Assembly: GCA_002480735.1 (NCBI GenBank)
Contig: DLCS01000082.1
Coordinates: forward strand, 1 to 15,963
Source: Bacillaceae bacterium UBA7792
GTDB lineage: Bacteria > Bacillota > Bacilli > Bacillales > Cytobacillaceae
Direction of reading: 5' to 3'
DNA: 15,963 bases
The notes beneath the pieces were generated by a model. That model saw only the letters and a program-made list of their open reading frames with translations. It was not told the DNA's origin and ran no database searches. The position numbers were made by a program, and so were the translations under genes. Positions 1 through 15,138 of this stretch are shown here, piece after piece (within the stretch, counting starts at the first letter, position 1; each line of letters opens with the position of its first letter).

Positions 1-33
1 ACAGCAGCTAGCATTTTAAGAGAAATGGTTTAA
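1..33 (+). CDS. 3' end of an unidentified upstream gene (partial)
   Basis: The window opens in a frame that reads ten sense codons (TAASILREMV) and then TAA at 31-33. The stop overlaps the first base of a GAGGAGGAG ribosome binding site region serving the next gene, an arrangement typical of tightly packed Bacillus genes on one strand. Too little is visible to name a product, and an intergenic origin of these 33 bases cannot be excluded. Confidence 0.35.
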   Translation, partial: TAASILREMV

Positions 34-47
34 TGAGGAGGAGAAAA

Positions 48-488
48 ATGGCACAGATCATGAACGTGAAGGTGAATGGAACCGGGACAGTGATGCGTTT
101 GGATGCCGTTGCTGGTAAACATAAAATTGCCGTGGATGAGCCTGTAACAATGGGTGGAAAGGATTCAGCAGCAGACCCCCTATCAACCTTTTTGGCTTCC
201 CTTCTTGCATGTGAAAATGTGATGGCTCAAATCATTGCAAAGGAAATGGAGTTCGACCTTCAAGGAATATCCTTTGAAACAGAAGGTACGATTGATATTA
301 GCGGACTTATGGGGAATCTTGAAGTAGATCCGAAGTTTCAGGAGGTTACAGTTAAAGCGTTTGTGAAGACAACTGAAACCCAAGAAAGAATTGATGAAAT
401 GAAAAATGCGGTCGATTTACGCTGTCCGATTTTTAGAACAATAAAAGATGCTGGAATCCCAATTACCAATGACTGGGTGAAAGCATAA
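48..488 (+). CDS. OsmC/Ohr-family peroxiredoxin-like protein
   Basis: This is a 146-residue soluble protein of the OsmC superfamily, whose members reduce organic hydroperoxides or detoxify reactive electrophiles with a Cys pair. The two expected cysteines are visible: C55 in the helix SLLACENVMA and C126 in DLRCPIFRTI. The PLSTFLASLLAC helix is the typical N-terminal core of the family, and the length fits. I chose ATG 48 because GAGGAGGAG lies just upstream at 35-43; the in-frame ATG at 33 lies inside that site and overlaps the preceding stop. The gene probably ends a small transcription unit, since a strong terminator follows at once. Whether it is a true hydroperoxidase or a YhfA-like OsmC subfamily member cannot be settled here. 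Confidence 0.88.
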   Translation: MAQIMNVKVNGTGTVMRLDAVAGKHKIAVDEPVTMGGKDSAADPLSTFLASLLACENVMAQIIAKEMEFDLQGISFETEGTIDISGLMGNLEVDPKFQEVTVKAFVKTTETQERIDEMKNAVDLRCPIFRTIKDAGIPITNDWVKA

Positions 489-493
489 TGATA

Positions 494-529
494 AAGCTCC
501 TAAATCATAATGATTTGGGGGCTTTTTTT
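494..529 (+). terminator. Rho-independent terminator after the OsmC gene
   Basis: A 14-bp stem (494-507 with 511-524, including two G-T wobbles) closes a 3-nt loop and runs into a T tract ending at 529. It starts five bases after the OsmC stop codon. Confidence 0.9.
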
Positions 530-565
530 ATAATAGGAAGTTAGAAATTTGAAGATTGGTGACTG

Positions 566-700
566 TTCGATCCATTGTGTGAGAGCGAGTGGGGCCCAAT
601 AGAGGTTATTGGGGCACGAACAGAAGGGAAGTTCAAGGTGAGTTGTACCCAATAAGGGTTATTGAAGTACGAAATAAATCACAATGGGTTATATCCAATA
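566..700. repeat. Imperfect tandem-type repeat pair in the spacer before the ABC operon
   Basis: Two 26-nt units at 595-620 and 648-673 begin CCCAATA, contain GGTTATTG and end ACGAA. They match at 21 of 26 positions, and their starts are 53 nt apart. Each unit is itself a weak dyad (CCCAATA against TATTG). CCATTGTG at 572-579 and its reverse complement CACAATGG at 680-687 flank the pair, and a degenerate CCAATA core recurs at 695-700. No ORF of convincing quality lies here. It may be a degenerate intergenic repeat family, but copies elsewhere in the genome cannot be seen. Confidence 0.55.
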
Positions 701-709
701 ATTTTAAAA

Positions 710-741
710 TGACAAATGTCACCTCATAATTATGACATAAT
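710..741 (+). promoter_or_regulatory. Candidate operator for the downstream response regulator
   Basis: A dyad TGACA-AA-TGTCA sits at 710-721. A second near-palindrome, TTATGACATAAT, sits at 730-741 and contains the same TGACA core. Their centres are about 20 bp apart, roughly two helical turns, and lie about 45 and 66 bp upstream of the inferred transcription start. That is the usual placement for an activator of the NarL/LuxR class. The binding protein is inferred to be the regulator encoded at 3588-4190; nothing in the sequence proves it. Confidence 0.5.
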
Positions 742-745
742 CCAC

Positions 746-774
746 TAATCCAGTATTTCCCTCCTGGCTATAAT
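746..774 (+). promoter_or_regulatory. Sigma-A-type promoter of the ABC/two-component operon
   Basis: A perfect -10 hexamer TATAAT lies at 769-774. With a 17-nt spacer the -35 position is TAATCC, a poor match to TTGACA. A good -10 with a weak -35 directly downstream of a dyad operator suggests activator dependence. Transcription would begin near 781, giving a short leader before ATG 803. Confidence 0.55.
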
Positions 775-802
775 GAAATTAGAAATCACGGAGGTGGAGG
801 AA

Positions 803-1702
803 ATGGAGCAGATTATTTCATTGCAAAATATTGCTAAGAAATTTAAAGATAAAAAAGCAGTTGATGATATATCTTTTTCAATCAAAAAGGGAGAGATTGT
901 CGCTATTCTCGGGCCGAATGGAGCAGGTAAGTCGACCACAATGCTTATGATGCTTGGGTTATTAGAACCAACAAGCGGCAGCATTAACATATTTAATCGG
1001 AACCCGAAGGAAAAACAGGTTCGTGAGCGCATTGGAGCGATGCTTCAGGAGGTCAGTGTCATTGATGCCCTGAAAGTGAAAGAGGTCATCCAGTTATTCA
1101 GAAGCTATTATCCAAATCCGATGGAATTTGCAGAGCTTGTTACCCTTACTGGCCTAAATGATGAGGATTTAAAGAGAAAAGCTGATAAGCTCTCAGGTGG
1201 GCAAAAAAGAAGATTAGGTTTCGCATTGGCTCTAGCAGGCAACCCTGATGTGCTGTTTTTTGATGAGCCGACCGTGGGGATGGACATTTCCTCAAGAAAA
1301 AGATTCTGGGACACGATTCAAGCACTGAAGGAAAGAGGAAAAACGATTATCTTTTCCACTCACTATCTGCAGGAGGCGGATGATATAGCGGAAAGAATTC
1401 TCCTCTTTAATGAAGGGGTCATAGTGGCAGACGGAACACCGAAGGAAATTAAGAAGCAGCTTTCCAAGCAATCCGTTTCATTTATCGACCCAGGGAATCT
1501 TTCCCTTGAAGAGCTTCAGAGCCTGCCAATCGTTAGAGACGTATACAGGAAAAATAATCGTGTCTATGTCGTAACAGAGCAAACAGATGATGTATTAGAA
1601 TATTTATTTTCGACAAAAGAAAAGGTCCAAGGAATTCAAATAGAGCAGGGACGTTTAGACGAAGCTTTTGCAGAGCTTACTGAAAATAAGGAGGCTATCT
1701 AA
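803..1702 (+). CDS. ABC transporter ATP-binding protein (drug/antibiotic export type)
   Basis: This 299-aa ATPase powers the permease encoded next. Walker A GPNGAGKST is at 37-45 (K43), the Q-loop is Q82, the signature LSGGQ is at 130-134, Walker B is VLFFDEPT at 150-157 (E155), and the switch His is H187. The roughly 80 residues after the nucleotide-binding domain form the C-terminal extension common in CcmA/DrrA-type exporters. GGAGGTGGAGG at 790-800 selects ATG 803; the in-frame ATG at 773 overlaps the -10 hexamer and lacks a binding site. It is the first gene of a four-gene operon, stopping one base before the permease start. The gene order matches yvfR-yvfS-yvfT-yvfU of B. subtilis as I recall it. 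The substrate is unknown; resistance to a membrane-active antibiotic is a reasonable guess. Confidence 0.93.
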   Translation: MEQIISLQNIAKKFKDKKAVDDISFSIKKGEIVAILGPNGAGKSTTMLMMLGLLEPTSGSINIFNRNPKEKQVRERIGAMLQEVSVIDALKVKEVIQLFRSYYPNPMEFAELVTLTGLNDEDLKRKADKLSGGQKRRLGFALALAGNPDVLFFDEPTVGMDISSRKRFWDTIQALKERGKTIIFSTHYLQEADDIAERILLFNEGVIVADGTPKEIKKQLSKQSVSFIDPGNLSLEELQSLPIVRDVYRKNNRVYVVTEQTDDVLEYLFSTKEKVQGIQIEQGRLDEAFAELTENKEAI

Positions 1703-1703
1703 A

Positions 1704-2444
1704 ATGAAAACAATCCTCACACAATGTAAATATGAGATCATACGCATCATGCGAAATCCCTATTATGTATTTTGGTCATTGTTTATGCCGATCGTGTTTT
1801 ACGTCGTTTTTACAAAAATATTCAATTCGAACATTGAAAATCAACAGGAATGGCAGGCACATTACCTCATGTCAATGACGACCTTCAGTGTAATGGGTTC
1901 AGCGATTATGACCCTTGGAATCCGTCTTGTTGAAGAAAGAACAAAGGGCTGGTCGATGTTCATGCGTATCACTCCTTTATCCGATAGTGCCTACTTTTTT
2001 GCCAAAATGGTTGGTCAAACCGTGATTCATGTTCTATCGATTGCCGTCATCTTTACCGCGGGCGCTCTCATAAATGGAATTTCTCTATCCGCATTTGAAT
2101 GGCTGATGAGCGGCCTATGGATCTTGGTGGCATCTGCCCCATTTTTAGCCATAGGGGTAGTGATTGGAACAATGAAACGGGTGGATACAGCATCAGGTAT
2201 CAGTAATCTCATTTATATGCTTTTAGCGATTTCGGGTGGAATGTGGATGCCGATGGAAATCATGCCAAAGGTGATTCAAAATATTGGCCAGTGGTTACCA
2301 TCTTACAATTTCGGCAATGGAGCATGGCAAATTATTCGCGGGAATGCTCCTGAGTGGTCAAATATTTTCATATTATTCGGATACCTCGTCGTTTTCGTGA
2401 TATTATCAAGCTATATAAGGAGAAAACAGGAAGCGGCGGTGTAG
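1704..2444 (+). CDS. ABC-2 type transporter permease
   Basis: This is a 246-aa integral membrane protein with about six hydrophobic segments (near residues 20-40, 55-75, 105-130, 140-165, 175-195 and 225-242) and a basic C-terminus (SSYIRRKQ). The layout is that of an ABC-2 half transporter, which would work as a dimer with two copies of the upstream ATPase. ATG 1704 is chosen because AAGGAGG at 1688-1694 lies ten bases before it. A 12-residue longer reading frame is open but would overlap the ATPase gene and has no binding site. The conserved polar stretch between segments 2 and 3 (RLVEERTKGW) is typical of exporter permeases, where it contacts the ATPase. Substrate unknown. Confidence 0.9.
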   Translation: MKTILTQCKYEIIRIMRNPYYVFWSLFMPIVFYVVFTKIFNSNIENQQEWQAHYLMSMTTFSVMGSAIMTLGIRLVEERTKGWSMFMRITPLSDSAYFFAKMVGQTVIHVLSIAVIFTAGALINGISLSAFEWLMSGLWILVASAPFLAIGVVIGTMKRVDTASGISNLIYMLLAISGGMWMPMEIMPKVIQNIGQWLPSYNFGNGAWQIIRGNAPEWSNIFILFGYLVVFVILSSYIRRKQEAAV

Positions 2445-2448
2445 AATT

Positions 2449-3591
2449 TTGGCAGCAGATCGAAAAAGGTTTGAAATCTTTCCAAGACGGTATGGATTCT
2501 TTCCCTATATATTCTTAGTCTATTTATTCATGCCGGCGTATTATATGAGCTTTGCGGAGGGTTGGAAAAAGGGGGTGGGCATTTGCCTGCTTCTCATATT
2601 TCTCATTACGTACCGTCAGCTTTATACCATTCTTGAAAGTAAGCGTCACTATACCTTTTGGTTGGCGGTACAGGTGGGCATTATTCTTATTCTTTCGATT
2701 TTCTACAACATGAACAACCTATTTCTCGGATTTTTTTCTGCTCATTTTATCGGCTATTACAATGAAAAGAAAAAATTCCTAACGGCTTTAACCATATTTG
2801 GGATTGTGATTGTTTTGCCACTTGCGCACTATATCATGAATAATAATTCCCCAAGCAATATGTTTTATTTGGTTCCCTTTATTATTATCATGCTTATCAC
2901 CCCATTTGGGATTCGCTCTATGAATGGTAGGATGGAGCTTGAAATGAAACTGGATCAAGCAAATGAACAAATCAAAGAGCTGGTGAAGCGTGAGGAGCGG
3001 ATGAGGATTGCCCGTGACCTTCATGATACACTTGGTCACACGCTGTCTCTTCTTACGTTGAAAAGTCAGCTAGTTGCTAAGCTTGCTCTTAAAGATCCAG
3101 AACGAGCCAGCCTTGAAGCTAAGGAAATGGAGAGAACCTCCCGTTCTGCCCTAGCTCAGGTACGAGAGCTTGTTTCTGATATGAGAACAATTACGGTGGC
3201 AGAGGAGCTAGTTGAGGCACAGGCTATTTTGAGAGCAGCTGGAATCTCCTTTCATTTAAGTGGGGACACCGTGCTTAAAGATACTCCGCATCTTACACAA
3301 AATATTTTGAGCATGTGTTTGAAGGAAGCGGTCACCAATGTTGTTAAGCATAGCGGTGCCAATCATTGTTTTGTCACTCTTCGTCAGCTAGAAGGGGAGG
3401 TTACGATGACAATAGAGGATGATGGGAAAGGAATGCCAACCCAAGAATCTCACGGTAATGGGTTGAAGGGGATGGGTGAGCGTCTTGAGTTGATTGATGG
3501 AACACTTCAGCTATCCACGAACAAAGGGACAAAACTAGTCATTTCCGTTCCAATCATTGTAAAAGAAAGAGAGGCTGGAGTCGTATCATGA
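2449..3591 (+). CDS. Sensor histidine kinase, NarL/DesK-type (HisKA_3)
   Basis: This 380-aa membrane kinase has about six N-terminal hydrophobic segments between residues 17 and 155, a short linker, and a HisKA_3 dimerisation helix with RIARDLHDTLGH (phospho-acceptor H192). A C-terminal HATPase domain follows, with an N-box (EAVTNVVKHSG), G1 box (IEDDGKGM) and G2 box (GLKGMGERLE). There is almost no extracytoplasmic domain, so it probably senses the membrane itself or the state of the linked transporter, as described for DesK- and LiaS-like sensors. The start is TTG 2449, four bases after the permease stop, with only a weak GGCGGTG-like binding site; translational coupling to the permease is likely. 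The stop overlaps the next start as ATGA. Comparable to YvfT of B. subtilis by context and architecture. Confidence 0.92.
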   Translation: MAADRKRFEIFPRRYGFFPYIFLVYLFMPAYYMSFAEGWKKGVGICLLLIFLITYRQLYTILESKRHYTFWLAVQVGIILILSIFYNMNNLFLGFFSAHFIGYYNEKKKFLTALTIFGIVIVLPLAHYIMNNNSPSNMFYLVPFIIIMLITPFGIRSMNGRMELEMKLDQANEQIKELVKREERMRIARDLHDTLGHTLSLLTLKSQLVAKLALKDPERASLEAKEMERTSRSALAQVRELVSDMRTITVAEELVEAQAILRAAGISFHLSGDTVLKDTPHLTQNILSMCLKEAVTNVVKHSGANHCFVTLRQLEGEVTMTIEDDGKGMPTQESHGNGLKGMGERLELIDGTLQLSTNKGTKLVISVPIIVKEREAGVVS

Positions 3592-4190
3592 TTCGAGTGA
3601 TTATTGCAGAAGACCAGCGGATGCTAAGGGGCGCTTTGGGTGCCCTACTAAATTTAGAGGATGACATCGAAGTGATCGCAGAGGTAGGGAATGGGGAGGA
3701 GGCCTTCAAGTCTATTCTTAGTCTTCAACCAGACGTATGCTTAATGGATATTGAAATGCCCATCAAAACAGGACTAGATGTAGCGGAAGAGTTAAAGCAG
3801 CTTGGCTCCCCTTGCAAGATTATTATTCTAACAACCTTTGCTAGACCTGGTTATTTCAAGAGGGCGGTAAATGCGGGTGTACACGGGTATTTGTTAAAGG
3901 ATGGACCAAGTGATGAACTGGCTGAAACCATTCGCAAGGTGACACAAGGGAAAAGAGAATACGCACCCGAGTTAGTTTTCGGTAGCCTTCAGGAGGAGAA
4001 CCCCCTTACAGAACGAGAACGTGAGATTATGAAGCTAGTAGCTGAAGGAAAAACAGCAAAGGAAATTTCCGCTGAGCTCTTTTTATCTTCAGGGACAGTT
4101 AGAAACTATATATCGGAAGTAATCAATAAATTGAATGTGAAAAATCGCATTGAAGCAATCTCCATTGCCCAAGAAAAGGGCTGGCTGTAG
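3588..4190 (+). CDS. Response regulator, NarL/LuxR (FixJ) family
   Basis: This 200-aa cytoplasmic transcription factor is the partner of the kinase whose stop codon it overlaps by four bases. The receiver domain (about 1-120) has the acidic pocket E8/D9, phospho-acceptor D54 in CLMDIEMP, T82/T83 and K104 in LLKDG. The C-terminal LuxR helix-turn-helix (about 136-200) reads LTEREREIMKLVAEGKTAKE and continues through FLSSGTVRNYISEVINKL. Dimers of this class bind short inverted repeats, and the TGACA dyads at 710-741 are the obvious candidate target, making the operon autoregulated. Similar in size and order to YvfU. I see no convincing terminator directly after it, so some read-through into the next small gene is possible. 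Confidence 0.93.
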   Translation: MIRVIIAEDQRMLRGALGALLNLEDDIEVIAEVGNGEEAFKSILSLQPDVCLMDIEMPIKTGLDVAEELKQLGSPCKIIILTTFARPGYFKRAVNAGVHGYLLKDGPSDELAETIRKVTQGKREYAPELVFGSLQEENPLTEREREIMKLVAEGKTAKEISAELFLSSGTVRNYISEVINKLNVKNRIEAISIAQEKGWL

Positions 4191-4333
4191 CAACAATGGT
4201 TGAGAAAAGAGCCGTAGTTTTCCCCCCACTTTGATTGTTAAAATCTATCAAATCTCTTTGGAACATTTCATTCATGAGAGAAAAGAAGTATGATAGAGAA
4301 AAGGCATCTAGAATCGTCAAAAGGGGTGGATAT

Positions 4334-4543
4334 ATGAAGACGTATCGAATTTCCTGGTATGCAGTGGTGGAGGATGATAGTGTCTTAGATGGCCGAAGCT
4401 TAATCCACGCACCGACGCAGGAAGAAGCAATTGAGAAATTAGTTATTAAAAAGTCTCATGAATACCGTCTTAAACCCTATATGGTACAAATTCAATCAAT
4501 ATGGGAGATTCCAAGCGGTGAATCCAATGAAAGCAGCTCTTAA
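4334..4543 (+). CDS. Small hypothetical protein (69 aa)
   Basis: I do not recognise this family. The protein starts MKTYRISWYAVVEDDSV and has alternating hydrophobic and polar residues suggestive of beta strands, followed by an EEAIEKLVIKK helix and a Ser/Glu-rich tail. It has no signal peptide, membrane segment or cysteine. ATG 4334 is preferred because AAGGGGTGG at 4321-4329 precedes it; a 33-residue longer open frame has no better binding site. A TATGAT at 4289-4294 could be a -10, though its -35 is poor. The terminator stem runs through the last codons and stop, which supports this being a real gene with a defined 3' end. It lies between the two-component operon and the DnaA-box cluster. 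Confidence 0.65.
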   Translation: MKTYRISWYAVVEDDSVLDGRSLIHAPTQEEAIEKLVIKKSHEYRLKPYMVQIQSIWEIPSGESNESSS

Positions 4544-4560
4544 GGGGGCCGCTTTTTTTT
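4530..4560 (+). terminator. Terminator overlapping the stop codon of the 69-aa gene
   Basis: AAAGC at 4530-4534 pairs with GCTTT at 4551-4555. GCTC at 4536-4539 pairs with the G-rich run at 4546-4549 across an A-C mismatch. Eight T residues follow the GC of the closing stem. The TAA stop (4541-4543) lies in the loop. Confidence 0.8.
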
Positions 4561-4565
4561 ATAAG

Positions 4566-4751
4566 TTATCCTAAAAGATATCCACATAAAAAGTACCTTT
4601 ACAGCAACCATCCACAAAGTTACCCACATTATCCACATTATTATCAGGAATTACTCATAAAAAGTTATCTACAAATGAAAAAGTGGGATGAATTAATATA
4701 TAACAAGGCTTTTATTGTGTTCATCCACAGTATCAACAGGGTTGTGGATAA
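4566..4751. promoter_or_regulatory. Candidate DnaA-box cluster
   Basis: Measured against TTATCCACA, this 186-bp stretch holds perfect boxes at 4629-4637 (plus strand) and 4743-4751 (minus strand, TGTGGATAA). One-mismatch boxes are ATATCCACA 4578-4586, TTACCCACA 4620-4628 (directly abutting the perfect box), TTATCTACA 4665-4673 and TCATCCACA 4721-4729. Two-mismatch boxes are TTATCCTAA 4566-4574 and CCATCCACA 4608-4616. Nearly all are in the same orientation; the perfect minus-strand box at the right edge is opposed. A short AT-rich stretch (4690-4703) lies inside. B. subtilis is known to have DnaA-box clusters away from oriC that titrate DnaA and restrain initiation; this fits that description. 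No dnaA, dnaN or plasmid rep gene is present, so a true origin is unlikely. Confidence 0.72.
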
Positions 4752-4809
4752 GTGGGTTCATTTTTTGTTCAAATTTCTCAAAATAAATATGTAGAAATTG
4801 TGAATTGGA

Positions 4810-4838
4810 TTGTTTCCACTGTTGGAATGGTATATAGT
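4810..4838 (+). promoter_or_regulatory. Candidate sigma-A promoter of the DoxX gene
   Basis: TTGTTT (4810-4815) and TATAGT (4833-4838) are separated by 17 nt. The -10 forms the left arm of a perfect dyad TATAGT-AAA-ACTATA (4833-4847), so a protein bound there would cover the promoter. Transcription would start near 4845 and give an unusually long leader of about 145 nt. Confidence 0.5.
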
Positions 4839-4844
4839 AAAACT

Positions 4845-4936
4845 ATAGAAAGTAAGTGAAAAACTTCACAAGATGTTCACCCAAGTTACTTTCTATTAAC
4901 TATAAGCTGGCCGGCTTATCATACAAACCTTTGTAT
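4845..4936 (+). promoter_or_regulatory. Leader with stacked inverted repeats upstream of the DoxX gene
   Basis: Three dyads follow each other. An 11-bp perfect inverted repeat (ATAGAAAGTAA 4845-4855 with TTACTTTCTAT 4886-4896) encloses a smaller GTGAA-N4-TTCAC repeat (4856-4869). A near-perfect 18-bp palindrome sits at 4902-4919 (ATAAGC, GGCC core, GCTTAT). A perfect ATACAAA-CC-TTTGTAT sits at 4921-4936. They may be RNA hairpins, repressor operators, or both. The GTGAA-AAAC-TTCACAA part matches 12 of 14 defined positions of the Rex consensus. Confidence 0.55.
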
Positions 4937-4957
4937 TCAAAAATTTTTTACATCAAA

Positions 4958-4975
4958 TTGTGAATGATATCACAA
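4958..4975 (+). promoter_or_regulatory. Perfect dyad TTGTGA-N6-TCACAA, Rex- or Crp/Fnr-type site
   Basis: TTGTGAATGATATCACAA ends three bases before the GGAG core of the DoxX ribosome binding site. It matches 13 of 14 defined positions of the Gram-positive Rex operator TTGTGAA-N4-TTCACAA. It also fits the Crp/Fnr-type core TGTGA-N6-TCACA exactly. Its place downstream of the likely promoter favours a repressor roadblock, hence Rex, over an Fnr-type activator. The binding protein is inferred. Confidence 0.55.
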
Positions 4976-4989
4976 AAAAGGAGAGGTTT

Positions 4990-5487
4990 ATGATGAAATG
5001 GTGGAAAACTCCACAAGTATCTGTAGCTTGGACAATTATTAGAATTTGGCTTGGTCTTCAATGGATTGAAGCAGGCTGGGGTAAAATAACAGGTGGTTTT
5101 GATGCTTCAGGATTTCTGAAAGGCGCAATTGCGAGTGCGAGTGGGGATCATCCAGCAGTACAAGGATGGTACGCAGCATTCCTTGAAGGTTTTGCATTAC
5201 CAAATGCTGATTTATTTAGCCATTTGGTTGCCTATGGTGAATTATTAGTGGGACTCGGACTCATTCTTGGTGCAGCAACTATCCCAGCTTTAATTGCAGG
5301 AGCATTTATGAACTTGAACTTCATGTTAGCAGGAACAACTAGCACTAATCCAATTTTATATACAGTTGCAATGGTTCTTTTATTCGCAGGAAGTGGTAGC
5401 TACTACTGGGGTGTCGACCGCTTTGCAGTACCGTTTATTAAAGCAAAATTAAACAAAGATAATAGAGCAGTGGTTAATCAAAATTAA
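4990..5487 (+). CDS. DoxX-family membrane protein
   Basis: This 165-aa integral membrane protein of the DoxX/TQO small-subunit family has the hallmark first helix IIRIWLGLQWIEAGWGKITGG and further hydrophobic segments near residues 75-95, 95-115 and 118-140. The family includes thiosulfate:quinone oxidoreductase subunits and CatD (YfiD) of B. subtilis, linked to quinone/thiol redox stress, but the reaction of this member is unknown. AAGGAGAGG at 4978-4986 selects ATG 4990; ATG 4993 is an alternative, and a GTG start at 4960 lies inside the operator. It is a single-gene unit closed by a strong terminator. The dyad-rich leader with Rex/Fnr-like sites suggests redox or oxygen control. Confidence 0.88.
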   Translation: MMKWWKTPQVSVAWTIIRIWLGLQWIEAGWGKITGGFDASGFLKGAIASASGDHPAVQGWYAAFLEGFALPNADLFSHLVAYGELLVGLGLILGAATIPALIAGAFMNLNFMLAGTTSTNPILYTVAMVLLFAGSGSYYWGVDRFAVPFIKAKLNKDNRAVVNQN

Positions 5488-5498
5488 AGGATGTTTAT

Positions 5499-5539
5499 GA
5501 GGAGGACGAAATCATAGGGTTTCGTCCTCCTCTTTTTTT
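5499..5539 (+). terminator. Strong terminator after the DoxX gene
   Basis: A perfect 13-bp stem (5499-5511 with 5520-5532) with an 8-nt loop is followed by seven T residues. It separates the DoxX unit from the helicase gene. Confidence 0.95.
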
Positions 5540-5591
5540 GGTATCCTTATGATATAAATGGAATGAACTAGCTAAGGAAGGAGCCGTCCAT

Positions 5592-8510
5592 TTGAGGATT
5601 AATCATAAAAGTTATTCAAGTGAAAAACAAAGCTTATCAGATGAATTATTGCGTATATTTGAGGATCGGCCTCTTCGTGCAACTAGGAATCAGCAATATT
5701 TTGAGGATAGAAAGGTTCTTGAAACTCAATTCGTCCTTCATGCAATCAAAGATGAACATGGCCAAAACCTATTCGGAATAGAAATTCAAGTCGAAGAAAT
5801 ACCTGTACTTGAAATACAGAATTTTTTTAAAAATGTCCAGAACGGAAAAAGATATGATCTTTCGGCATCCTTTACATACGATCCAGCGATTCACTGCTTT
5901 CAACGTGAAGTAGATGAACTTATACAAGGGCTGATCCAAATTTGCGAGGTCGACAAGTTTTTTCCTGAGGAATCCATTAATAAAAAAAATCTCTTGTTGA
6001 TTCCACCGTCTTCCTGGAGCCAAGTCCTTTCATGTCTCATCAATGTATCAGGCACCCAGCTTAAGTACAATGGGAAAGTGTTTCGCGGACTACAATTGTC
6101 AGAGGCACTCCATACTGTTCAATTTGATTTCAAAGAAGCAACGGGACAGGGGTATCAGCTATTCATACAGGGCTTGGGGCAGATCATGCTGATGCCGATG
6201 TACCACTGCGTTCTTGACAATGGGGTACTTGTCCATTTGGATCAAGCAGGCTACAAGCAATTCATGGGTATAAAGGAAATACTAGAGAATACCAACTTAA
6301 GCCATATCCCGATCCCTCAGGAACAGCTATCTTTTTTTCTGGAAAAAGTTCTGCCAGGATTAAAGAGGCTCGGTCCTGTTCATATTTCCGAGATTCTCTC
6401 GCAGGAACTCATACAGACGCCGCTCGTGGCTAAGCTTTATCTCGATCGGATTCGAAATCGCCTCCTCGCCGGCTTGGAGTTTCATTATGGGAATGTAGTC
6501 TTTAATCCATTAGAGCAGAATAAACTGGCTGATAGCGTTCTCCTTTTTAGAGACCGCAGAAAGGAAGATGAGATTCTTCGTTTGTTCGATGAAAGTGGCT
6601 TTGCCAAAACGGATGAGGGGTACTACCTACAGAATGAAGAGCTAGAGTATGAGTTTCTCTATCATACGATTCCGCAGCTCGAGAAAATGGTGCAAATTTA
6701 TGCTACCACTGCGATTAGGAATCGTATATTCAGGAGCAATGACCGTCCGCAAATCCGGGTCAAGGTAAAGAGGGAGCGGACCAATTGGCTTGAATTCAAG
6801 TTTGAAATGGGGAGTATACCAGAAAGTGAAATTCGAAATGTTTTGCAAGCCCTTGAGGAAAAGAGAAAATACTACCGCTTGAGGAATGGTTCCCTTTTAT
6901 CATTAGAGGCTAGGGAATTTGAGGAAATCAATCGCTTTTTAAGAACGGTCCCTAATCAGCATTATGAGGATTTTGAAAAAGGGTTGGAGCTTCCCATTCT
7001 GATAGGGATTAGTTTTCTTGATGCAATTATGGACAACGACGCATTTGCTCCTGAGGAATCCTTTCAGCAATTTTTGGAGGAAATTCGTCATCCCGAACGG
7101 CTGCGGTTTGAGGTGCCTAGGCCATTAGATGCTCTATTGAGGGAATATCAAAAGCAGGGTTACCAGTGGATGAAGACCCTTGCTAGCTATGGCTTTGGAG
7201 GGATCCTCGGAGATGATATGGGATTGGGGAAAACCGTGCAGAGCATTACCTACATACAGTCGGTCCTCTCCGAAATTCGCACGCAAAAGCTACCAGCTTT
7301 AATCGTCTGTCCGTCCTCAGTAACCTATAACTGGTTGAATGAATTTAAGCGGTTTACCCCTAACATCCATGCCCTTGTCATTGATGGGGGGAGAAAGGAA
7401 AGACGGAGGCTTGAGCAAAACATAGAGGGTGTAGATGTTATCATTATTTCTTATCCATTATTACGTAGTGATCTTCATTGGGCTGAGCAACAGGCGTTTC
7501 ACACAGCGTTTTTTGATGAGGCTCAAAGCTTCAAGAATCCGATTACACAAACAGCCAAAGCGGTAAAGAAAGTCAAAGCGAATCATCAATTTGCTCTTAC
7601 TGGTACACCGGTCGAGAATACGGTTGAGGAATTATGGTCGATTTTTCATGTTGTTTTTCCTGAGCTGTTTCAGGGATTGAGGGAATATAGCCAACTATCA
7701 CGCAAGCAAATAGCTCGCCGTTCAAGTCCCTTTCTTCTTCGGCGCTTGAAGGAGGATGTATTGGCGGAGCTTCCAGAAAAAATAGAAATCCAAGAATCAG
7801 TAGAGCTTTATCCTGAGCAAAAAAAGCTGTATGCTGCTTACTTGGCGAAGCTAAGACATGATACATTAAAACACTTAGATAAGGATACGATTGAGAGGAA
7901 CCGCATTAGAATTCTAGCGGGTCTCACACGATTGCGCCAAATATGCTGTCACCCAACTCTGTTTGTCGATGGCTATAAAGGGGGAGCAGCGAAGTTTGAT
8001 AAGCTGATGCAGCTCGTCGAAGAATCGCAGCACGCTGGAAGAAGAGTCCTCATCTTTTCCCAATTTACTAAGATGCTTGGCCTGATTGGGAGACAGCTGA
8101 CATTAAAAGGAGTTTCTTATTTTTATTTGGATGGGGCGACACCTTCTGAGGAACGGGTAGAGCTTTGCGATCGGTTTAACTCAGGGGACAGATCATTCTT
8201 TTTAATATCCTTAAAAGCGGGTGGGACTGGGCTTAATTTGACGGGAGCAGACACGGTGATCCTCTATGATATTTGGTGGAACCCAGCGGTAGAGGAGCAG
8301 GCAACCGACCGTGCCCACCGAATCGGGCAAGAGCAAACGGTAAAGGTAATCAAGCTGCTTTCTAAAGGAACGATTGAAGAAAAGATGGAGCAGCTCCAAA
8401 ACAAAAAGCGGCACTTAATCGAAGAACTCATTGATTCCAAGGAGAATCGAGAATCCGCATTAACTGCAGAGGACATTCGGGATCTGCTAATGCTGGATTT
8501 AGAAAGCTAA
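5592..8510 (+). CDS. SNF2-family DNA helicase/translocase (YwqA type)
   Basis: This 972-aa superfamily 2 ATPase is predicted to translocate on double-stranded DNA and remodel DNA-protein complexes. The first ~500 residues resemble the bacterial SNF2-associated region. The catalytic core follows: Q-motif region LREYQKQGYQWMK, motif I GDDMGLGKT (K547), motif II DEAQ (642-645), motif III ALTGTPVEN, motif IV RRVLIFSQFTKML, motif V LISLKAGGTGLNL and motif VI DRAHRIGQ (from D906). DEAQ instead of DEAH is normal in this bacterial branch. No CxC...CxH SWIM motif is seen in the N-terminal half; in B. subtilis I recall a SWIM protein (YwqB) encoded beside ywqA, but none is here. AAGGAG at 5578-5583 supports TTG 5592. 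A monocistronic unit is likely. Confidence 0.95.
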   Translation: MRINHKSYSSEKQSLSDELLRIFEDRPLRATRNQQYFEDRKVLETQFVLHAIKDEHGQNLFGIEIQVEEIPVLEIQNFFKNVQNGKRYDLSASFTYDPAIHCFQREVDELIQGLIQICEVDKFFPEESINKKNLLLIPPSSWSQVLSCLINVSGTQLKYNGKVFRGLQLSEALHTVQFDFKEATGQGYQLFIQGLGQIMLMPMYHCVLDNGVLVHLDQAGYKQFMGIKEILENTNLSHIPIPQEQLSFFLEKVLPGLKRLGPVHISEILSQELIQTPLVAKLYLDRIRNRLLAGLEFHYGNVVFNPLEQNKLADSVLLFRDRRKEDEILRLFDESGFAKTDEGYYLQNEELEYEFLYHTIPQLEKMVQIYATTAIRNRIFRSNDRPQIRVKVKRERTNWLEFKFEMGSIPESEIRNVLQALEEKRKYYRLRNGSLLSLEAREFEEINRFLRTVPNQHYEDFEKGLELPILIGISFLDAIMDNDAFAPEESFQQFLEEIRHPERLRFEVPRPLDALLREYQKQGYQWMKTLASYGFGGILGDDMGLGKTVQSITYIQSVLSEIRTQKLPALIVCPSSVTYNWLNEFKRFTPNIHALVIDGGRKERRRLEQNIEGVDVIIISYPLLRSDLHWAEQQAFHTAFFDEAQSFKNPITQTAKAVKKVKANHQFALTGTPVENTVEELWSIFHVVFPELFQGLREYSQLSRKQIARRSSPFLLRRLKEDVLAELPEKIEIQESVELYPEQKKLYAAYLAKLRHDTLKHLDKDTIERNRIRILAGLTRLRQICCHPTLFVDGYKGGAAKFDKLMQLVEESQHAGRRVLIFSQFTKMLGLIGRQLTLKGVSYFYLDGATPSEERVELCDRFNSGDRSFFLISLKAGGTGLNLTGADTVILYDIWWNPAVEEQATDRAHRIGQEQTVKVIKLLSKGTIEEKMEQLQNKKRHLIEELIDSKENRESALTAEDIRDLLMLDLES

Positions 8511-8514
8511 GTTT

Positions 8515-8553
8515 TTAAAAAAAATGAACCAGTGGAGGAAGCCCACTGATTCA
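8515..8553. terminator. Bidirectional terminator between the SNF2 gene and yfhD
   Basis: CAGTGG (8530-8535) pairs with CCACTG (8543-8548), extended across one mismatch by TGAA/TTCA. The A run at 8517-8524 gives a good T tract for minus-strand transcripts from yfhD. The plus-strand side is only moderately T-rich (TTATTTATTTATTTTTT further on). The two genes converge here. Confidence 0.75.
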
Positions 8554-8566
8554 ATCACTTATTTAT

Positions 8567-8755
8567 TTATTTTTTCTGTTTTGCACGACGGTCGGCTGCA
8601 TTGGAGCGCGCCATCGCTTCCAAATCTTCATGATCTGCCAAATCGCGATCAAACTCAACATCGAGACCATCCGATTTCATATTTTTTGGAACTTGTGGAA
8701 GCTTCGCCTTGTTTTTATCTCTTGTTTTCTGTCCTTGAGCACGTCCCAATCTCAT
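8567..8755 (-). CDS. yfhD: YfhD family small protein
   Basis: This is a 62-aa highly charged protein: MRLGRAQGQKTRDKNKAKLP, then a DVEFDRDLADHEDLEA block and a basic tail RRAKQKK. I recognise this pattern as the YfhD family of Bacillus, of unknown function. It has no membrane segment and is rich in Lys/Arg at both ends with an acidic middle, like many small proteins of spore formers. The ATG at 8755 is preceded by GAAAGGGG on the minus strand. It is separated from yfhE by a hairpin and converges with the SNF2 gene. Conservation of neighbours yfhE and yfhF supports the call. Confidence 0.88.
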   Translation of the reverse strand: MRLGRAQGQKTRDKNKAKLPQVPKNMKSDGLDVEFDRDLADHEDLEAMARSNAADRRAKQKK

Positions 8756-8774
8756 GAACCCCTTTCAAATTGAA

Positions 8775-8807
8775 AAGTAAGGAAAACCAGCTTGGCTTTC
8801 CTTACTT
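8775..8807 (-). terminator. Hairpin between yfhE and yfhD (probable yfhE terminator)
   Basis: AAGTAAGGAAA (8775-8785) pairs perfectly with TTTCCTTACTT (8797-8807), extended inward by CCA/TGG. On the minus strand it is followed only by TTTC, so termination may be inefficient and yfhD may be read through from yfhE. Confidence 0.6.
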
Positions 8808-8845
8808 AGTCTGTACGGAGCACTTTGAAAATATGAATGGTTAAA

Positions 8846-8974
8846 TTAATGTTTCGCTTTCTTTTTTGTGTAGCCTCCAGCCTGATCGGCCATCTTAAAT
8901 TCATGGGAATAAACAACTTCCTGCATGCTTGAGAGGGTGCTTTTTGACTTATCTCTTCTTTTCTTATCTGCCAA
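8846..8974 (-). CDS. yfhE: YfhE family small protein (TTG start)
   Basis: The minus strand encodes 42 residues from TTG at 8974: a basic N-terminus MADKKRRDKSKSTLSSMQEV, then VYSHEFKMADQAGGYTKKKA and KH. The SSMQEVVYSHEFK-ADQAGG core is what I know of the YfhE family, function unknown, always short. GGAAAGGATG on the minus strand (8981-8990) provides the binding site, and a nearer ATG in it is closed at once by a stop, leaving TTG as the only sensible start. It lies between yfhF and yfhD as in B. subtilis. It is short enough, and its start rare enough, to be missed by automatic calling. Confidence 0.82.
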   Translation of the reverse strand: MADKKRRDKSKSTLSSMQEVVYSHEFKMADQAGGYTKKKAKH

Positions 8975-9050
8975 TTTAGTTCATCCTTTCCACAAAGAAT
9001 AGTAAATGCAAATACTTTCTTATTTTTCCCGAATTGGAAAGGATTGATAC

Positions 9051-9953
9051 TTAAGATGAATAAATATCCTTCAATGCCTCATCAATTTGAGTGTATTGAA
9101 AAGGGTATCCGTACTTCTGAAGCTGTTCAGGAATAACCTGTTGGCCTTCAAGAACCAATATGCTCATCTCACCAAGAGCTATTTTTAAGGCAAAGCTAGG
9201 AGCTGGAATCCAATGGGGACGACGAAGTGCCCTTCCGACTGCCCTACCTAACTCCTTCATCCGAATTGGATGAGGTGAAGTGAAGTTGACGGGTCCAGAA
9301 ATTGTTTCATGTTCAATGATAAATAATAGGGCATTGACCACATCATCAATATGAATCCATGACATCCACTGTTCGCCCGTTCCAACGGTGCCTCCTACGA
9401 AAAGCTTATATGGTAGTGCCATTCGAGGGAGCGCCCCTTCTTCCTTGTCCAAAATAATTCCAAATCGGCAATAACAAGTACGAATTCCAAGCATAGATGC
9501 TTCGGAGGCTTTTTCTTCCCATTGTCGGACCGTTGTTGCTAAAAAATCCTTGCCTGATTTCCCCGTCTCCTCCGTAAAAGTTTCTGTGAAGGACGTTCCA
9601 TAATAGCCAATGGCACTAGCATTAATAAGAGCCTTTGGTTTCTGCTCGAGTCTCCTCAAGATCGAAATAATCGCTTCTGTAGCTTCCAAACGACTAGTTA
9701 AGATTTTATTTTTTCCTGTTTCGGTCCAGCGGGTATTAATGGACTCACCTGCTAAATTAATCACGATGTCAATCTGATGTAGCTGACTTACTGGCTCGCT
9801 CCCTTCAACTAGCCACTTTACATATGTCAGATTCTGCACATTATTCTTGGGTGGATTTCTTGTTAATATAAATAACTCATGTCCCAGATCTAATAGTCTT
9901 TTCGTTAAGGCTTTTCCAACAAAGCCAGTCCCCCCAGCAATGGCAATTCTCAT
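9051..9953 (-). CDS. yfhF: TIGR01777-type NAD(P)-dependent epimerase/SDR protein
   Basis: This 300-aa extended short-chain dehydrogenase-like protein starts MRIAIAGGTGFVGKALTKRL, with the Rossmann motif GGTGFVG at residues 7-13. INLAGES and ASAIGYYG follow as the cofactor and Tyr region, and a C-terminal DUF1731-like segment (about 250-300) contains HWIPAPSFALKIALGEMS. The substrate is unknown; the family is often annotated as an epimerase or cell-division inhibitor SulA homologue without biochemical proof. GGGAGGGAG on the minus strand at 9958-9966 selects ATG 9953; a start 15 bases further upstream would sit within that site. It is divergent from recX across about 107 bp. Confidence 0.9.
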   Translation of the reverse strand: MRIAIAGGTGFVGKALTKRLLDLGHELFILTRNPPKNNVQNLTYVKWLVEGSEPVSQLHQIDIVINLAGESINTRWTETGKNKILTSRLEATEAIISILRRLEQKPKALINASAIGYYGTSFTETFTEETGKSGKDFLATTVRQWEEKASEASMLGIRTCYCRFGIILDKEEGALPRMALPYKLFVGGTVGTGEQWMSWIHIDDVVNALLFIIEHETISGPVNFTSPHPIRMKELGRAVGRALRRPHWIPAPSFALKIALGEMSILVLEGQQVIPEQLQKYGYPFQYTQIDEALKDIYSS

Positions 9954-10060
9954 GCTTCTCCCTCCCATTTAAATCACTAATGATTAATTTTGCTTTCCGG
10001 TCGATAAAACCCTTTAAAAACTTTTCTTTTTCAACTACGATTAATGAGGAGGTGAAAAAA

Positions 10061-10870
10061 ATGGCTATTATTACGAAAATCACCACCCAAAAGAAGAGCA
10101 CCGACCGCTATAACATCTTCCTCGATCATGGAAATGGGGAGGAATATGCGTTCAGCGTTGATGAGGATGTACTGATCAAATTTAATTTGAAAAAAGGGAT
10201 GGAGCTAGATGACTTTGCGATCATGGAGATCAATTACCAAGATGAGATCCGCAAAGCCTATAATTCAGCCATTCAATATCTGTCTAGAAGAATGAGATCG
10301 GAAACAGAGGTTAGGAACTTCTTAAAGGAAAAAGAGAGTCCTGAGCCAGTCATTCAAGAGGTTATCCATAAGCTCTACGAATATCAGTTCCTTAATGATG
10401 AGGAATATGCTCGCGCCTTCGTACGTACGCAAATGAATACAACGGACAAGGGCATAGAGCTGATAAGGAGAGAACTGAAGGAAAAGGGGATAAAGGGAGA
10501 TCTTTTAGAAGCAGCCTTGAAAGAATATCCACTCACGAATCAGATCGAAAAAGCTAAGGAGCTTTGGAAAAAAGCCATGCAAAAATATTCCAAAGAATCC
10601 GATCGAGTAATGAAGCAAAAAGCGGAACAGAACTTCATTCGAAAAGGATACTCCTATGCTGTCATTGCCATAGCGATGGAAGAAGTAGAAGACATAGATG
10701 AAAGTGGGGAACTGGATGCCCTTAGATATCAAGGGGAGAAGGTACACCGAAAATATAAGCACCTAAAAGGTTACGAATACGAGCAAAAAATGAAACAAAG
10801 CTTATATCGAAAAGGATTTTCTATAGAGATGATTGAAAGATATTTGTCTGAAATAAATGACGAACAGTAG
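10061..10870 (+). CDS. recX: Recombination regulator RecX
   Basis: RecX binds the RecA filament and modulates homologous recombination and the SOS response. This 269-residue protein has the long Bacillus form: a basic N-terminal beta segment (MAIITKITTQKKSTDRYNIF) and three or more repeats of a three-helix unit. The motif AIQYLSRRMRSETEVRNFL is near residues 73-91, YEYQFLNDEEYARAFV comes next, and later repeats include RKGYSYAVIAIA and YRKGFSIEMIERYL. ATG 10061 follows GAGGAGGTG at 10046-10054; a longer open frame to 9980 lacks a binding site and would cut into the divergent promoter region. yfhH starts 27 nt downstream, so the two are probably co-transcribed. No LexA-type operator is apparent upstream. 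Confidence 0.95.
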   Translation: MAIITKITTQKKSTDRYNIFLDHGNGEEYAFSVDEDVLIKFNLKKGMELDDFAIMEINYQDEIRKAYNSAIQYLSRRMRSETEVRNFLKEKESPEPVIQEVIHKLYEYQFLNDEEYARAFVRTQMNTTDKGIELIRRELKEKGIKGDLLEAALKEYPLTNQIEKAKELWKKAMQKYSKESDRVMKQKAEQNFIRKGYSYAVIAIAMEEVEDIDESGELDALRYQGEKVHRKYKHLKGYEYEQKMKQSLYRKGFSIEMIERYLSEINDEQ

Positions 10871-10897
10871 AGAAACCCAATTCTAGAGGTGAGAACA

Positions 10898-11218
10898 ATG
10901 GATGAAAAAAGATATAGTGACATGACAGAATATGAGCTCCAGCAGGAGATTGCAAAGCTAAATGAAAAAGCAAAAAAAGCGGAACAAATGGGGATGGTTA
11001 ATGAGTTCGCAGTTTTGGAAAGGAAAGCGGTGATGGCGAGGGCTTATTTGTTAAATCCAAAGGACTTTAAACCGAAGGAAATTTATGAAATAGATGGAGA
11101 TCCGGGTACCTATTTTCAAGTTGAGTATTTGAATGGCGTTTTTGCTTGGGGATTTCGCCTTGGGCAAAGTAAGACGGAAGAAGCATTGCCGATTTCGATG
11201 CTGAAAGCATTAAAGTAA
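10898..11218 (+). CDS. yfhH: YfhH family protein (DUF1811)
   Basis: This 106-aa soluble protein has an N-terminal helical part (YSDMTEYELQQEIAKLNEKA, with many Lys/Glu) and a C-terminal beta barrel-like part with FKPKEIYEIDGDPGTYFQVE and ending LPISMLKALK. This is the DUF1811/YfhH pattern; function unknown. AGAGGTGAG at 10885-10893 precedes ATG 10898; the GTG at 10889 lies inside that site. It follows recX on the same strand by 27 nt as in B. subtilis and ends in a hairpin that covers its stop codon. Confidence 0.92.
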   Translation: MDEKRYSDMTEYELQQEIAKLNEKAKKAEQMGMVNEFAVLERKAVMARAYLLNPKDFKPKEIYEIDGDPGTYFQVEYLNGVFAWGFRLGQSKTEEALPISMLKALK

Positions 11219-11244
11219 CCAGAGCCAAGGATCGCTCTGGTTAC
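11215..11244. terminator. Hairpin between yfhH and the YpzG-like gene
   Basis: GTAACCAGAGC (11215-11225) pairs perfectly over 11 bp with GCTCTGGTTAC (11234-11244). The yfhH stop (11216-11218) is inside the left arm. Neither side has a long T tract, so it is a weak bidirectional terminator or an mRNA 3'-end stabiliser. Confidence 0.65.
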
Positions 11245-11260
11245 CTTGCGTAAGACGCCA

Positions 11261-11419
11261 TTAAGAGTTTTTCCTAATTTGACGGTGGAGAATAATAAGG
11301 TCTTGTGTCTCCTGTGTCTCTCCGTTGACCTGGGAGTGTGCATGCTTCACGCGAAAATTTGGTGAAGTAAAAGGGCTTGAATATGGATTGTTGTCAAAGA
11401 ATTTTTTGCTGTTACCCAT
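11261..11419 (-). CDS. Small YpzG-like protein (52 aa)
   Basis: The minus strand from ATG 11419 encodes MGNSKKFFDNNPYSSPFTSP, then NFRVKHAHSQVNGETQETQD and LIILHRQIRKNS. The KHAHSQVNGETQETQ core resembles the YpzG family of small Bacillus proteins, function unknown; this assignment is from memory and moderate. GGAGG at 11430-11434 on the minus strand lies ten bases before the start. It occupies the yfhH-sspK interval, where I recall yfhI in B. subtilis. The two neighbouring genes on the same strand encode sspK and yfhP, so a sporulation-linked role is possible but only inferred. Overlapping longer frames here are shadows. Confidence 0.72.
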   Translation of the reverse strand: MGNSKKFFDNNPYSSPFTSPNFRVKHAHSQVNGETQETQDLIILHRQIRKNS

Positions 11420-11484
11420 AATTATCCAGCCTCCTAAGCCGATTTTTGAACGGACTTTTCTTCATAATGAGTAAGAATGGAGTC

Positions 11485-11661
11485 TTATTCTAAAAGCTCA
11501 GAGGTATCGGAATCCCGTTGATTTGAAGCTCTCATTCGTTCCTGCGGACGTGTATTGATGGTCCCATCAGCTCGCAATGAACTGTACTCGGCTTTCGCGC
11601 GAGGCTCACCTTCAAATTTGTTCGTTTCCTGATTTGGGAAATTCTTTGCCTTATTTCTCAT
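11485..11661 (-). CDS. sspK: Small acid-soluble spore protein K
   Basis: This 58-aa minor SASP is made in the forespore. The minus-strand product starts [20 protein letters not shown] and continues [26 protein letters not shown], which is the SspK pattern ([30 protein letters not shown]). It has about 12 extra residues at the C-terminus ([12 protein letters not shown]) beyond the ending I remember for B. subtilis. The binding site GGGAGGG on the minus strand lies before ATG 11661. A sigma-G-like promoter is present at 11736-11766. It stands between the YpzG-like gene and yfhP. Confidence 0.94.
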
Positions 11662-11696
11662 ATGTTGCCCTCCCTATGCAAACTCGAATCACACCC

Positions 11697-11729
11697 CGCT
11701 ATTGACGTGCGTTTTGATAGTCAATAACG
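11697..11729 (-). other. Hairpin in the sspK leader
   Basis: CGCTATTGAC (11697-11706) and GTCAATAACG (11720-11729) pair over 9 of 10 positions. It lies between the sigma-G-like -10 and the ribosome binding site, so it would fold at the very 5' end of the sspK mRNA and could stabilise it. Confidence 0.45.
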
Positions 11730-11735
11730 TAATCT

Positions 11736-11766
11736 TAGTATGGGCGCATTGAAAGGGAAGTATGAT
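11736..11766 (-). promoter_or_regulatory. Sigma-G-like (forespore) promoter of sspK
   Basis: On the minus strand the -10 reads CATACTA (11736-11742), the classic sigma-G/sigma-F form. With an 18-nt spacer the -35 is ATCATA (11761-11766), four of six against TGCATA. It begins just after the T tract of the yfhP terminator. Consistent with forespore expression of a SASP. Confidence 0.65.
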
Positions 11767-11769
11767 GGG

Positions 11770-11805
11770 AAAAAATTAAAAAGCGATGCAACTAGACATC
11801 GCTTT
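11770..11805 (-). terminator. Terminator of yfhP
   Basis: On the minus strand AAAGCGATG / CATCGCTTT (11780-11788 with 11797-11805) forms a 9-bp stem with an 8-nt loop. It is followed by TTTAATTTTTT. The stem overlaps the first two bases of the yfhP stop triplet as read on the plus strand. Confidence 0.88.
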
Positions 11806-12784
11806 AGTTAGGGAGAATCTGCAGTTTTTTGCGAAGCTTTTCTTCGCTAAAGATCCATCCCGTATAGGAAGATAAAATATTTAGGTCCATATCTAATTGA
11901 ACGACCGCAACAAAGGGATAGTGGTCCTTGCTGCGATATCTAAGGTCAATGAACTTAACCTCATAATAATTGTCGTATTCATCAACCTCCCAACGATACA
12001 CCGGAGAAAAGGAAAGGAAGGCAGATAGGTTCTTGTCCTTTTTTGCCGCTTCGATAACAGGTGATTCAGGAACCTTTACGCGTGCAAATTGGTCAAGAAT
12101 CGTGACTTCATTATTATGAGCGCGCCCGACAAAAAATTGATGCTTGTTCATGACCGCAACTCTCCACTGATGAAACTTCATCGTTGGAGAAATAATGATG
12201 TCGGTCGCATCCGGGATGATTGTTCTGACTTCACGCAGCACTTTTCTTTGCCTAATAAAACGATATACATAATAGGCAATGAGAATAGCATAGATCCCTA
12301 AAAAGGTGTAACCAGGATCAAATCCTACTCCCCAAATTACTAAACCGACGACATGGAGGCCAAAAATTATCGGGTCAAAGGTATTAATGACGCCTAGGGC
12401 CACCCATTTTGATGAAAATGGTCGTAAGGCTTGAGTTCCATAGGCATTGAAAATATCAACAAAAACATGTAGAAATACAGCTAAAAATGTCCACAGCCAT
12501 AAATGCAGCAAATTCGCTTCAGGAAAAAAAGGATAAACCACCGCTACAATGGCGAGCGGCCAAAGCAATACAGCGGGAATCGAATGGGTAATCCCTCGAT
12601 GGTTTCGAATATACACAGCATTGTTCCGAAGCTTTAGCACAGTATCGATGTCGGGAGCCTGTGACCCAACAATCGTACCGATCATGACACTTGTTGCGGT
12701 TGCCGCACTTCCTGCTACAATCGGATCTAAGGTTGCGAGACCGCCTAGGGCAAGTCCCATTACGACATGAGTACCAGTGTCCAA
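11804..12784 (-). CDS. yfhP: YfhP/YdjM-type membrane-bound metal-dependent hydrolase family protein
   Basis: This 326-aa membrane protein begins MDTGTHVVMGLALGGLATLD. It carries the metal-ligand-like motifs of the YdjM/DUF457 family: TH near residue 6, SQAPDID near 40, HRGITHS near 63 and HVFVDIFNAYG near 110. Four or more hydrophobic segments lie in the N-terminal 190 residues, followed by a soluble, beta-rich C-terminal domain of about 130 residues. The enzymatic activity is predicted, not shown. The start is TTG 12784, supported by AAGGAGG seven bases upstream on the minus strand. It is divergent from mutY across a 175-bp AT-rich spacer. Regulation of YfhP by sporulation or stress cannot be read from the sequence. 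Confidence 0.92.
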   Translation of the reverse strand: MDTGTHVVMGLALGGLATLDPIVAGSAATATSVMIGTIVGSQAPDIDTVLKLRNNAVYIRNHRGITHSIPAVLLWPLAIVAVVYPFFPEANLLHLWLWTFLAVFLHVFVDIFNAYGTQALRPFSSKWVALGVINTFDPIIFGLHVVGLVIWGVGFDPGYTFLGIYAILIAYYVYRFIRQRKVLREVRTIIPDATDIIISPTMKFHQWRVAVMNKHQFFVGRAHNNEVTILDQFARVKVPESPVIEAAKKDKNLSAFLSFSPVYRWEVDEYDNYYEVKFIDLRYRSKDHYPFVAVVQLDMDLNILSSYTGWIFSEEKLRKKLQILPN

Positions 12785-12959
12785 AGGGAAACCTCCTTAG
12801 GAAGGATGAAATTCTTTTTTGTAATTTAATTCTAACAACAAATCTTTTGTAAATATACAGTTATCACGCTATTTTTAAAGAGAACTTAATAATTGAAATA
12901 AAATGTTCAAAAATCATTTGTAACGTTATCTAATAGGGTAGGCAAAAGGAGGCATATTC
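12785..12959. other. Divergent intergenic region between yfhP and mutY
   Basis: This 175-bp AT-rich spacer must hold promoters for both genes. On the plus strand TTGTAA (12918-12923), a 12-nt spacer and GGGTAG (12936-12941) loosely resemble a sigma-B promoter. The agreement is too poor to call, and no convincing sigma-A pair was found for either direction. AAAGGAGG just upstream of ATG 12960 is the mutY ribosome binding site. Confidence 0.4.
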
Positions 12960-14838
<1,879 letters not shown>

Positions 14839-14881
14839 ACCTCCAAATCGGGACAAATTAATGATCGTGGAGGTGATAACA

Positions 14882-15079: not shown

Positions 15080-15093
15080 CGTAAATATACTTA

Positions 15094-15133: not shown

Positions 15134-15138
15134 AGTTT

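Follow-up and report, generated by a model that had tools for sequence, protein, structure and literature searches.

In Bacillus subtilis, eight chromosomal regions are listed as strong DnaA sites in PMC4447404, namely sda, ywlC, ywcI, yydA, trmE, dnaA, dnaA/N and gcp/ydiF. The gcp/ydiF region contains 10 boxes and shows a strong preference for ATP-DnaA, with a Kd of 0.15 µM for ATP-DnaA and 0.33 µM for ADP-DnaA and a 16-fold greater recovery with ATP-DnaA at 55 nM (PMC4447404). The authors of that study suspect that the sequence, orientation and spacing of the boxes matter, and had too few regions to tell. Deleting six chromosomal clusters in B. subtilis advances initiation (Okumura 2012, as cited in PMC5295017 and PMC13220808). 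According to a cited review, a 10-fold overproduction of DnaA does not lead to over-initiation in B. subtilis, and this weakens a simple titration model. The control of the DnaA-ADP/ATP balance in this organism is called unknown in a 2026 review (PMC13220808). The locus described here, beside yfhF, is not among the eight strong sites listed in PMC4447404. In the literature searched, most of it freely readable, we found no DnaA cluster at the yfhF locus, no conserved array geometry and no binding or initiation experiment on this array; an earlier comparative remark in Okumura 2012 is possible.

The DNA analysed, hereafter the window, is 15,963 nt long and covers positions 1-15,963 of the forward strand of contig DLCS01000082.1 from Bacillaceae bacterium UBA7792 (GCA_002480735.1), an assembly of 3,556,505 bases in 296 contigs that is 82% complete. 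A box scan found again the two perfect TTATCCACA boxes of the original prediction, one at 4629-4637 on the plus strand (offset 63 from the start of the first box) and one at 4743-4751 on the minus strand (offset 177), the latter being inverted and closing the array. The four boxes with one mismatch were also recovered, all on the plus strand: ATATCCACA at 4578-4586 (offset 12), TTACCCACA at 4620-4628 (offset 54), TTATCTACA at 4665-4673 (offset 99) and TCATCCACA at 4721-4729 (offset 155). The box at 4620-4628 directly abuts the perfect box at 4629-4637, as had been described. Boxes with two mismatches are indeed present in the cluster, but we count three and not two, again all on the plus strand: TTATCCTAA at 4566-4574 (offset 0, a place kept in relatives), the weak box CCATCCACA at 4608-4616 (offset 42) and GTATCAACA at 4730-4738 (offset 164), which abuts the box at 4721-4729.

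The window as a whole has an ordinary number of boxes (19 with at most one mismatch, 15.3 expected); it is their clustering that is unusual. Perfect TTATCCACA occurs 58 times in the UBA7792 assembly, compared with 33 times for the reversed control, and at least two perfect copies within 250 bp are found at only seven places in the 3.56-Mb assembly, the yfhF-locus cluster included, so this density is not a common property of its intergenic regions. Clusters were ranked by a score in which each perfect TTATNCACA counts 3 and each box with one mismatch counts 1, a peak being a score of at least 7 in 250 bp. Within the examined stretches of the assembly the yfhF-locus cluster, at 10, is sixth of eight peaks, below the region upstream of dnaA (16), ywlC (15) and three peaks at 12, and above the dnaA-dnaN (9) and flagellin (7) regions. 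Bacillus sp. FJAT-27245 (main scaffold 4.58 Mb, 72 perfect boxes) has eight places with two or more perfect boxes within 250 bp, and the yfhF-locus cluster is again one of them. From reading the translations, we take the other six dense places in UBA7792 to be rlmH(yydA)-htrC, mnmE-jag, the region upstream of dnaA, yqeG-sda, ywlC and, more weakly, the region before a flagellin gene. Judged by their genes, five of them resemble known B. subtilis DnaA sites and the flagellin site is the weak sixth; since the yfhF locus is unlisted, it stands as the one clear addition. The flagellin site (contig C241; 5129-5159 of locus L084) consists of two perfect boxes that point the same way at a distance of 22 bp and enclose a one-mismatch box, upstream of the gene.

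The conservation of the cluster was followed from a yfhF-like gene at 9051-9968 on the minus strand (TIGR01777 family oxidoreductase), which served as anchor for the locus. In the family sample yfhF was matched in 113 of 121 genomes, and 100 stretches were taken, blind to both DoxX and boxes; exactly one cluster was found in 68 of them and two in none. In the order sample YfhF was matched in 79 of 81 genomes and 60 stretches were taken, of which 30 held one cluster and none held two, the clusters coming from 21 of the 39 sampled families. The cluster is therefore conserved in close relatives. These results also bear on the possibility that it is a chance accumulation of DnaA-like words, a reading with which the near-expected box total in the window would agree. 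Over the 100 family stretches (819,567 bases) neither the reversed motif nor five Markov simulations gave any peak, and 30 scrambled motifs gave 0-2 peaks each (none for 24 of the 30), against 68 for the real motif. Considering also that the box layout is conserved across relatives and that the cluster recurs at the order level, a chance origin is hardly credible and was rejected.

The array is missing from 32 of the 100 family stretches and 30 of the 60 order stretches, and some of these misses are contig ends (for example, L132 and L145). It is absent from 13 of 15 stretches of one genus (g17) and from all five of another (g5). With about one third of the family stretches and one half of the order stretches lacking it, the array is not essential, and other clusters may do part of the same work. 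Natural comparisons are possible between related genomes that have the array and those that lack it, for example in genus g17, where 2 of 15 have it. Where it is found, its direction relative to yfhF is identical in 95 of 96 model hits, and this constancy suggests vertical inheritance at a single locus.

The arrangement of the boxes is also retained. Across genera and families the same offsets recur, at approximately 0, 12, 42, 54, 63 (the last two abutting), 85-99, 140-156 and 149-165, followed by the inverted closing box at 162-178, with variation in the box complement such that some arrays lack one or more boxes. An abutting pair in the same direction, allowing two mismatches in total, is present in 96 of 98 clusters, a count that is partly built in because this pair anchored the alignment. 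Among 35 genus representatives the mean column identity is 0.66 in boxes and 0.36 in spacers; it reaches 0.85 at the box at 4620-4628 and 0.90 at 4629-4637, and is 0.44 at 4665-4673, a weakly conserved place. We built a sequence-only model, R1, from 35 yfhF-locus arrays, the window being one of the training sequences. R1 matches the plus strand at 4562-4754 (model positions 3-185 of 188) with 85.8 bits and an E value of 4.3e-24, and the next place in the UBA7792 genome, in the sda region, scores 22.3 bits.

Many DnaA boxes together with an AT-rich stretch would also be expected of a second or relic replication origin, left for example by an integrated element. The array does not lie beside dnaA/dnaN, and the oriC of UBA7792 is found on contig C152. 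No dnaA, dnaN or other initiator gene is among the families found in the window, the synteny and direction with yfhF are conserved over families, and the geometry is unlike that of the organism's own oriC, pieces of which score at most 11.4 bits with R1. With synteny, direction and geometry all against it, a relic origin is very improbable.

The model led to a second locus. All 81 order genomes contain an R1 match at E ≤0.01, many of them weak; at least 30 genomes have a match no more than 8 kb from yfhF, at least 64 of the 81 have one no more than 6 kb from tsaD (gcp), and at least 25 have both. Among the matches listed, 78 have at least 40 bits, with 27 near yfhF, 44 near tsaD and 7 elsewhere; the yfhF-locus matches include training sequences and the tsaD matches include none. 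In each of the 16 loci in which tsaD and ydiF could both be identified, the two genes converge and the array lies between them; it is placed in the same way in loci L279 and L286. It is present there in all six same-genus relatives searched; tsaD itself was not found in the 82%-complete UBA7792 assembly.

The geometry of the two loci was compared by exchanging spacers within a locus, in 40 trials per locus, and comparing R1 scores. At 15 of 19 tsaD loci every one of the 40 shuffles scored lower than the real array, and at the other four 4, 5, 6 and 10 of the 40 shuffles scored as high. Since 17 of the 19 loci had been found by R1 itself they are selected for score, and the two picked by perfect boxes alone split, with 0 of 40 shuffles as high at L286 and 10 of 40 at L279. 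At ten other DnaA clusters, six from UBA7792 and four from FJAT-27245, between 1 and 37 of 40 shuffles scored as high. For the UBA7792 clusters this number was 7 to 37, the shuffles equalling or beating the real arrangement, and a geometry shared with them was thus not found. In box order, direction and spacing the yfhF-locus array belongs to the tsaD/ydiF type, with the qualification that 15 of 19 tsaD loci beat all their shuffles and four did not.

In a class-level sample, R1 matched at E ≤1e-4 in 60 of 81 genomes, five of these being from the array's own order. Fourteen class-level loci were inspected (L339-L352), and tsaD is present in nine of them. Because class-level matches fall at tsaD, the tsaD/ydiF array looks old, and on this distribution the array at yfhF would appear to be a second copy in many families. 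The remaining five loci (L339, L343, L347, L350 and L352) are R1 matches in 3-kb loci having none of the four marker genes tsaD, ydiF, DoxX and yfhF, and are possibly further sites of the same geometry.

Downstream of the array is a DoxX-family gene at 4990-5487 on the plus strand (Pfam PF07681, 34.1 bits). Its start was measured 239 bp past the last box, in agreement with the distance of about 240 bp given originally, and the array had also been proposed as a DnaA-responsive control region for this gene. That proposal did not hold. In the family stretches the cluster is present in 19 of 31 with DoxX and in 49 of 69 without it, so that DoxX is absent from 49 of the 68 stretches with a cluster, and in the order sample the corresponding frequencies are 7 of 11 and 23 of 49. 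Among same-genus genomes, the cluster occurs together with DoxX and an SNF2-family gene in three (G008, G033, G050), with SNF2 but without DoxX in one (G073) and with neither gene in another (G083). We also searched 79 DoxX loci of named genomes, defining the context as yfhF or recX within 6 kb downstream; the genomes of this search and those of the family sample overlap, and the two samples are not independent. In this context a cluster lies within 1 kb upstream of DoxX in 31 of 51 loci, and outside it in only 3 of 28 (L051, L058 and L062, of which L058 is a short contig). A link between cluster and DoxX as a regulated gene was thus not found in the family and DoxX samples: the array stays without DoxX, DoxX elsewhere is mostly without the cluster, and DoxX regulation was rejected as the main explanation. 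In three loci without DoxX, the small genes between cluster and yfhF presumably correspond to yfhD and/or yfhE, which they resemble. No paper joining a DnaA box with DoxX was found in the literature searched.

A more general form of this proposal would have DnaA, as a transcription factor, regulate whichever gene is adjacent, DoxX in the window and other genes elsewhere. The position of the array ahead of DoxX would suit such a role, and according to PMC4447404 some genes close to DnaA clusters are under DnaA control. We nevertheless consider it improbable. The neighbouring genes vary while the array persists, DoxX genes outside the locus rarely have a cluster, and the sister array at tsaD/ydiF sits between two gene ends. 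In addition, a simple scan, whose reach is limited to this promoter type, found no plus-strand sigma-70-like site in 4300-5050.

Other features surround the array. A palindrome, TATAGT-AAA-ACTATA, is found upstream of DoxX at 4833-4847 and is a possible operator; a strict motif search found it upstream of DoxX in none of the 79 DoxX relatives, and therefore no weight is placed on it. Just before the array, at 4334-4543 on the plus strand, is a gene for 69 amino acids that matched neither Pfam nor NCBIfam at E 0.001. Relatives of it precede the array in L126 and L148, two loci of the same genus, and six of the 79 DoxX loci gave tblastn matches (L025, L027, L038, L059, L063 and L075). Between DoxX and yfhF lies the SNF2-family helicase gene (5592-8510, plus strand), present in Robertmurraya-type genomes and absent in most family stretches. 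Further upstream, 773-4190 on the plus strand contains ABC transporter genes followed by genes for a DesK-like histidine kinase and a LuxR-type response regulator. No known RNA family or tRNA was found in the window at the thresholds used.

The array consists of several boxes, is intergenic, lies outside oriC and is clustered beyond chance, as are chromosomal DnaA-box clusters of the B. subtilis type, and this part of the original prediction is supported by its conservation at one locus, its near-fixed geometry and the layout common with tsaD (gcp)/ydiF. We think it likely that the array, with its roughly nine boxes at near-fixed spacing in about 180 bp, is a chromosomal DnaA-box cluster outside oriC that cooperatively assembles DnaA, with a preference for ATP-DnaA, and restrains early initiation. 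What it controls is probably the start of chromosome replication, and not the expression of a neighbouring gene. That DnaA binds here we infer; a preference for ATP-DnaA would follow the precedent of gcp/ydiF (PMC4447404), and an effect on initiation that of the six-cluster deletion (cited in PMC5295017 and PMC13220808). Taken together, these two precedents suggest that the array holds ATP-DnaA off oriC. DnaA, by preference in its ATP form, would assemble cooperatively and head-to-tail on the tandem boxes of the same direction; the assembled protein would be kept away from oriC, and its withholding would restrain early initiation. An unlisted and widely conserved locus thus joins the chromosomal DnaA-box clusters of the Bacillus group, with one box geometry common to the yfhF and tsaD/ydiF clusters over many families. 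The spacing question, for which PMC4447404 had too few regions, can now draw on many natural arrays of one layout, and a conserved assembly site offers a definite starting point for studying how the DnaA-ADP/ATP balance is controlled.

Given the constraint on spacing, the array could also play a more active part, as datA or DARS does in Escherichia coli. As a counterpart of these sites the array would change the nucleotide state of DnaA and would not only be a sink. The spacing is kept over many families, beyond the needs of a plain sink; orientation and interval matter at datA and DARS (PMC5742627), and the balancing of DnaA-ADP and DnaA-ATP in B. subtilis is the process stated as unknown in PMC13220808. 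The core of DARS1 and DARS2 has two boxes in one direction and a third in the opposite direction (PMC5742627), like the end of the yfhF array, but the intervals are 9 and 13 in the array and 12 and 14 in DARS, and the boxes of the latter compared here lie between bioD and uvrB. DARS also prefers ADP-DnaA (PMC5742627), unlike gcp/ydiF with its ATP-DnaA preference (PMC4447404). The datA site has DnaA boxes in the same direction at set intervals and a preference for ATP-DnaA; it requires IHF (PMC5742627), whereas B. subtilis is without IHF according to a cited review. In three E. coli regions covering datA and DARS the best R1 score was 13.3 bits, before mutH, and the datA region gave 4.5 bits. 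Having no R1 match and different box intervals, the array is not identical with either E. coli site, and a remodelling role of this kind is unlikely, with some chance of being correct. Only tentatively would we propose a wider scheme, a class-wide DnaA assembly site of near-fixed geometry with copies at tsaD/ydiF and, in many families, at yfhF, on which a defined ATP-DnaA oligomer would set the nucleotide state or availability of DnaA as the sequence-unrelated, Gram-positive counterpart of datA and DARS.

The array as a likely DnaA-box cluster outside oriC has its nearer parallels in B. subtilis. The clusters at sda, ywlC, ywcI, yydA and trmE likewise lie outside oriC (PMC4447404). Clusters at sda-, ywlC-, yydA- and trmE-type places are present in the UBA7792 assembly itself, with a box layout unlike that of the yfhF array. 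The gcp (tsaD)/ydiF cluster (region 4 of Table 1 in PMC4447404) differs by its locus, the yfhF array sitting beside yfhF with changing neighbours and with a DnaA binding that is presumed. The two are alike in being intergenic, outside oriC and rich in boxes, and the likeness extends to geometry in the tsaD/ydiF arrays of the relatives, where it was seen, and not in the B. subtilis sequence itself.
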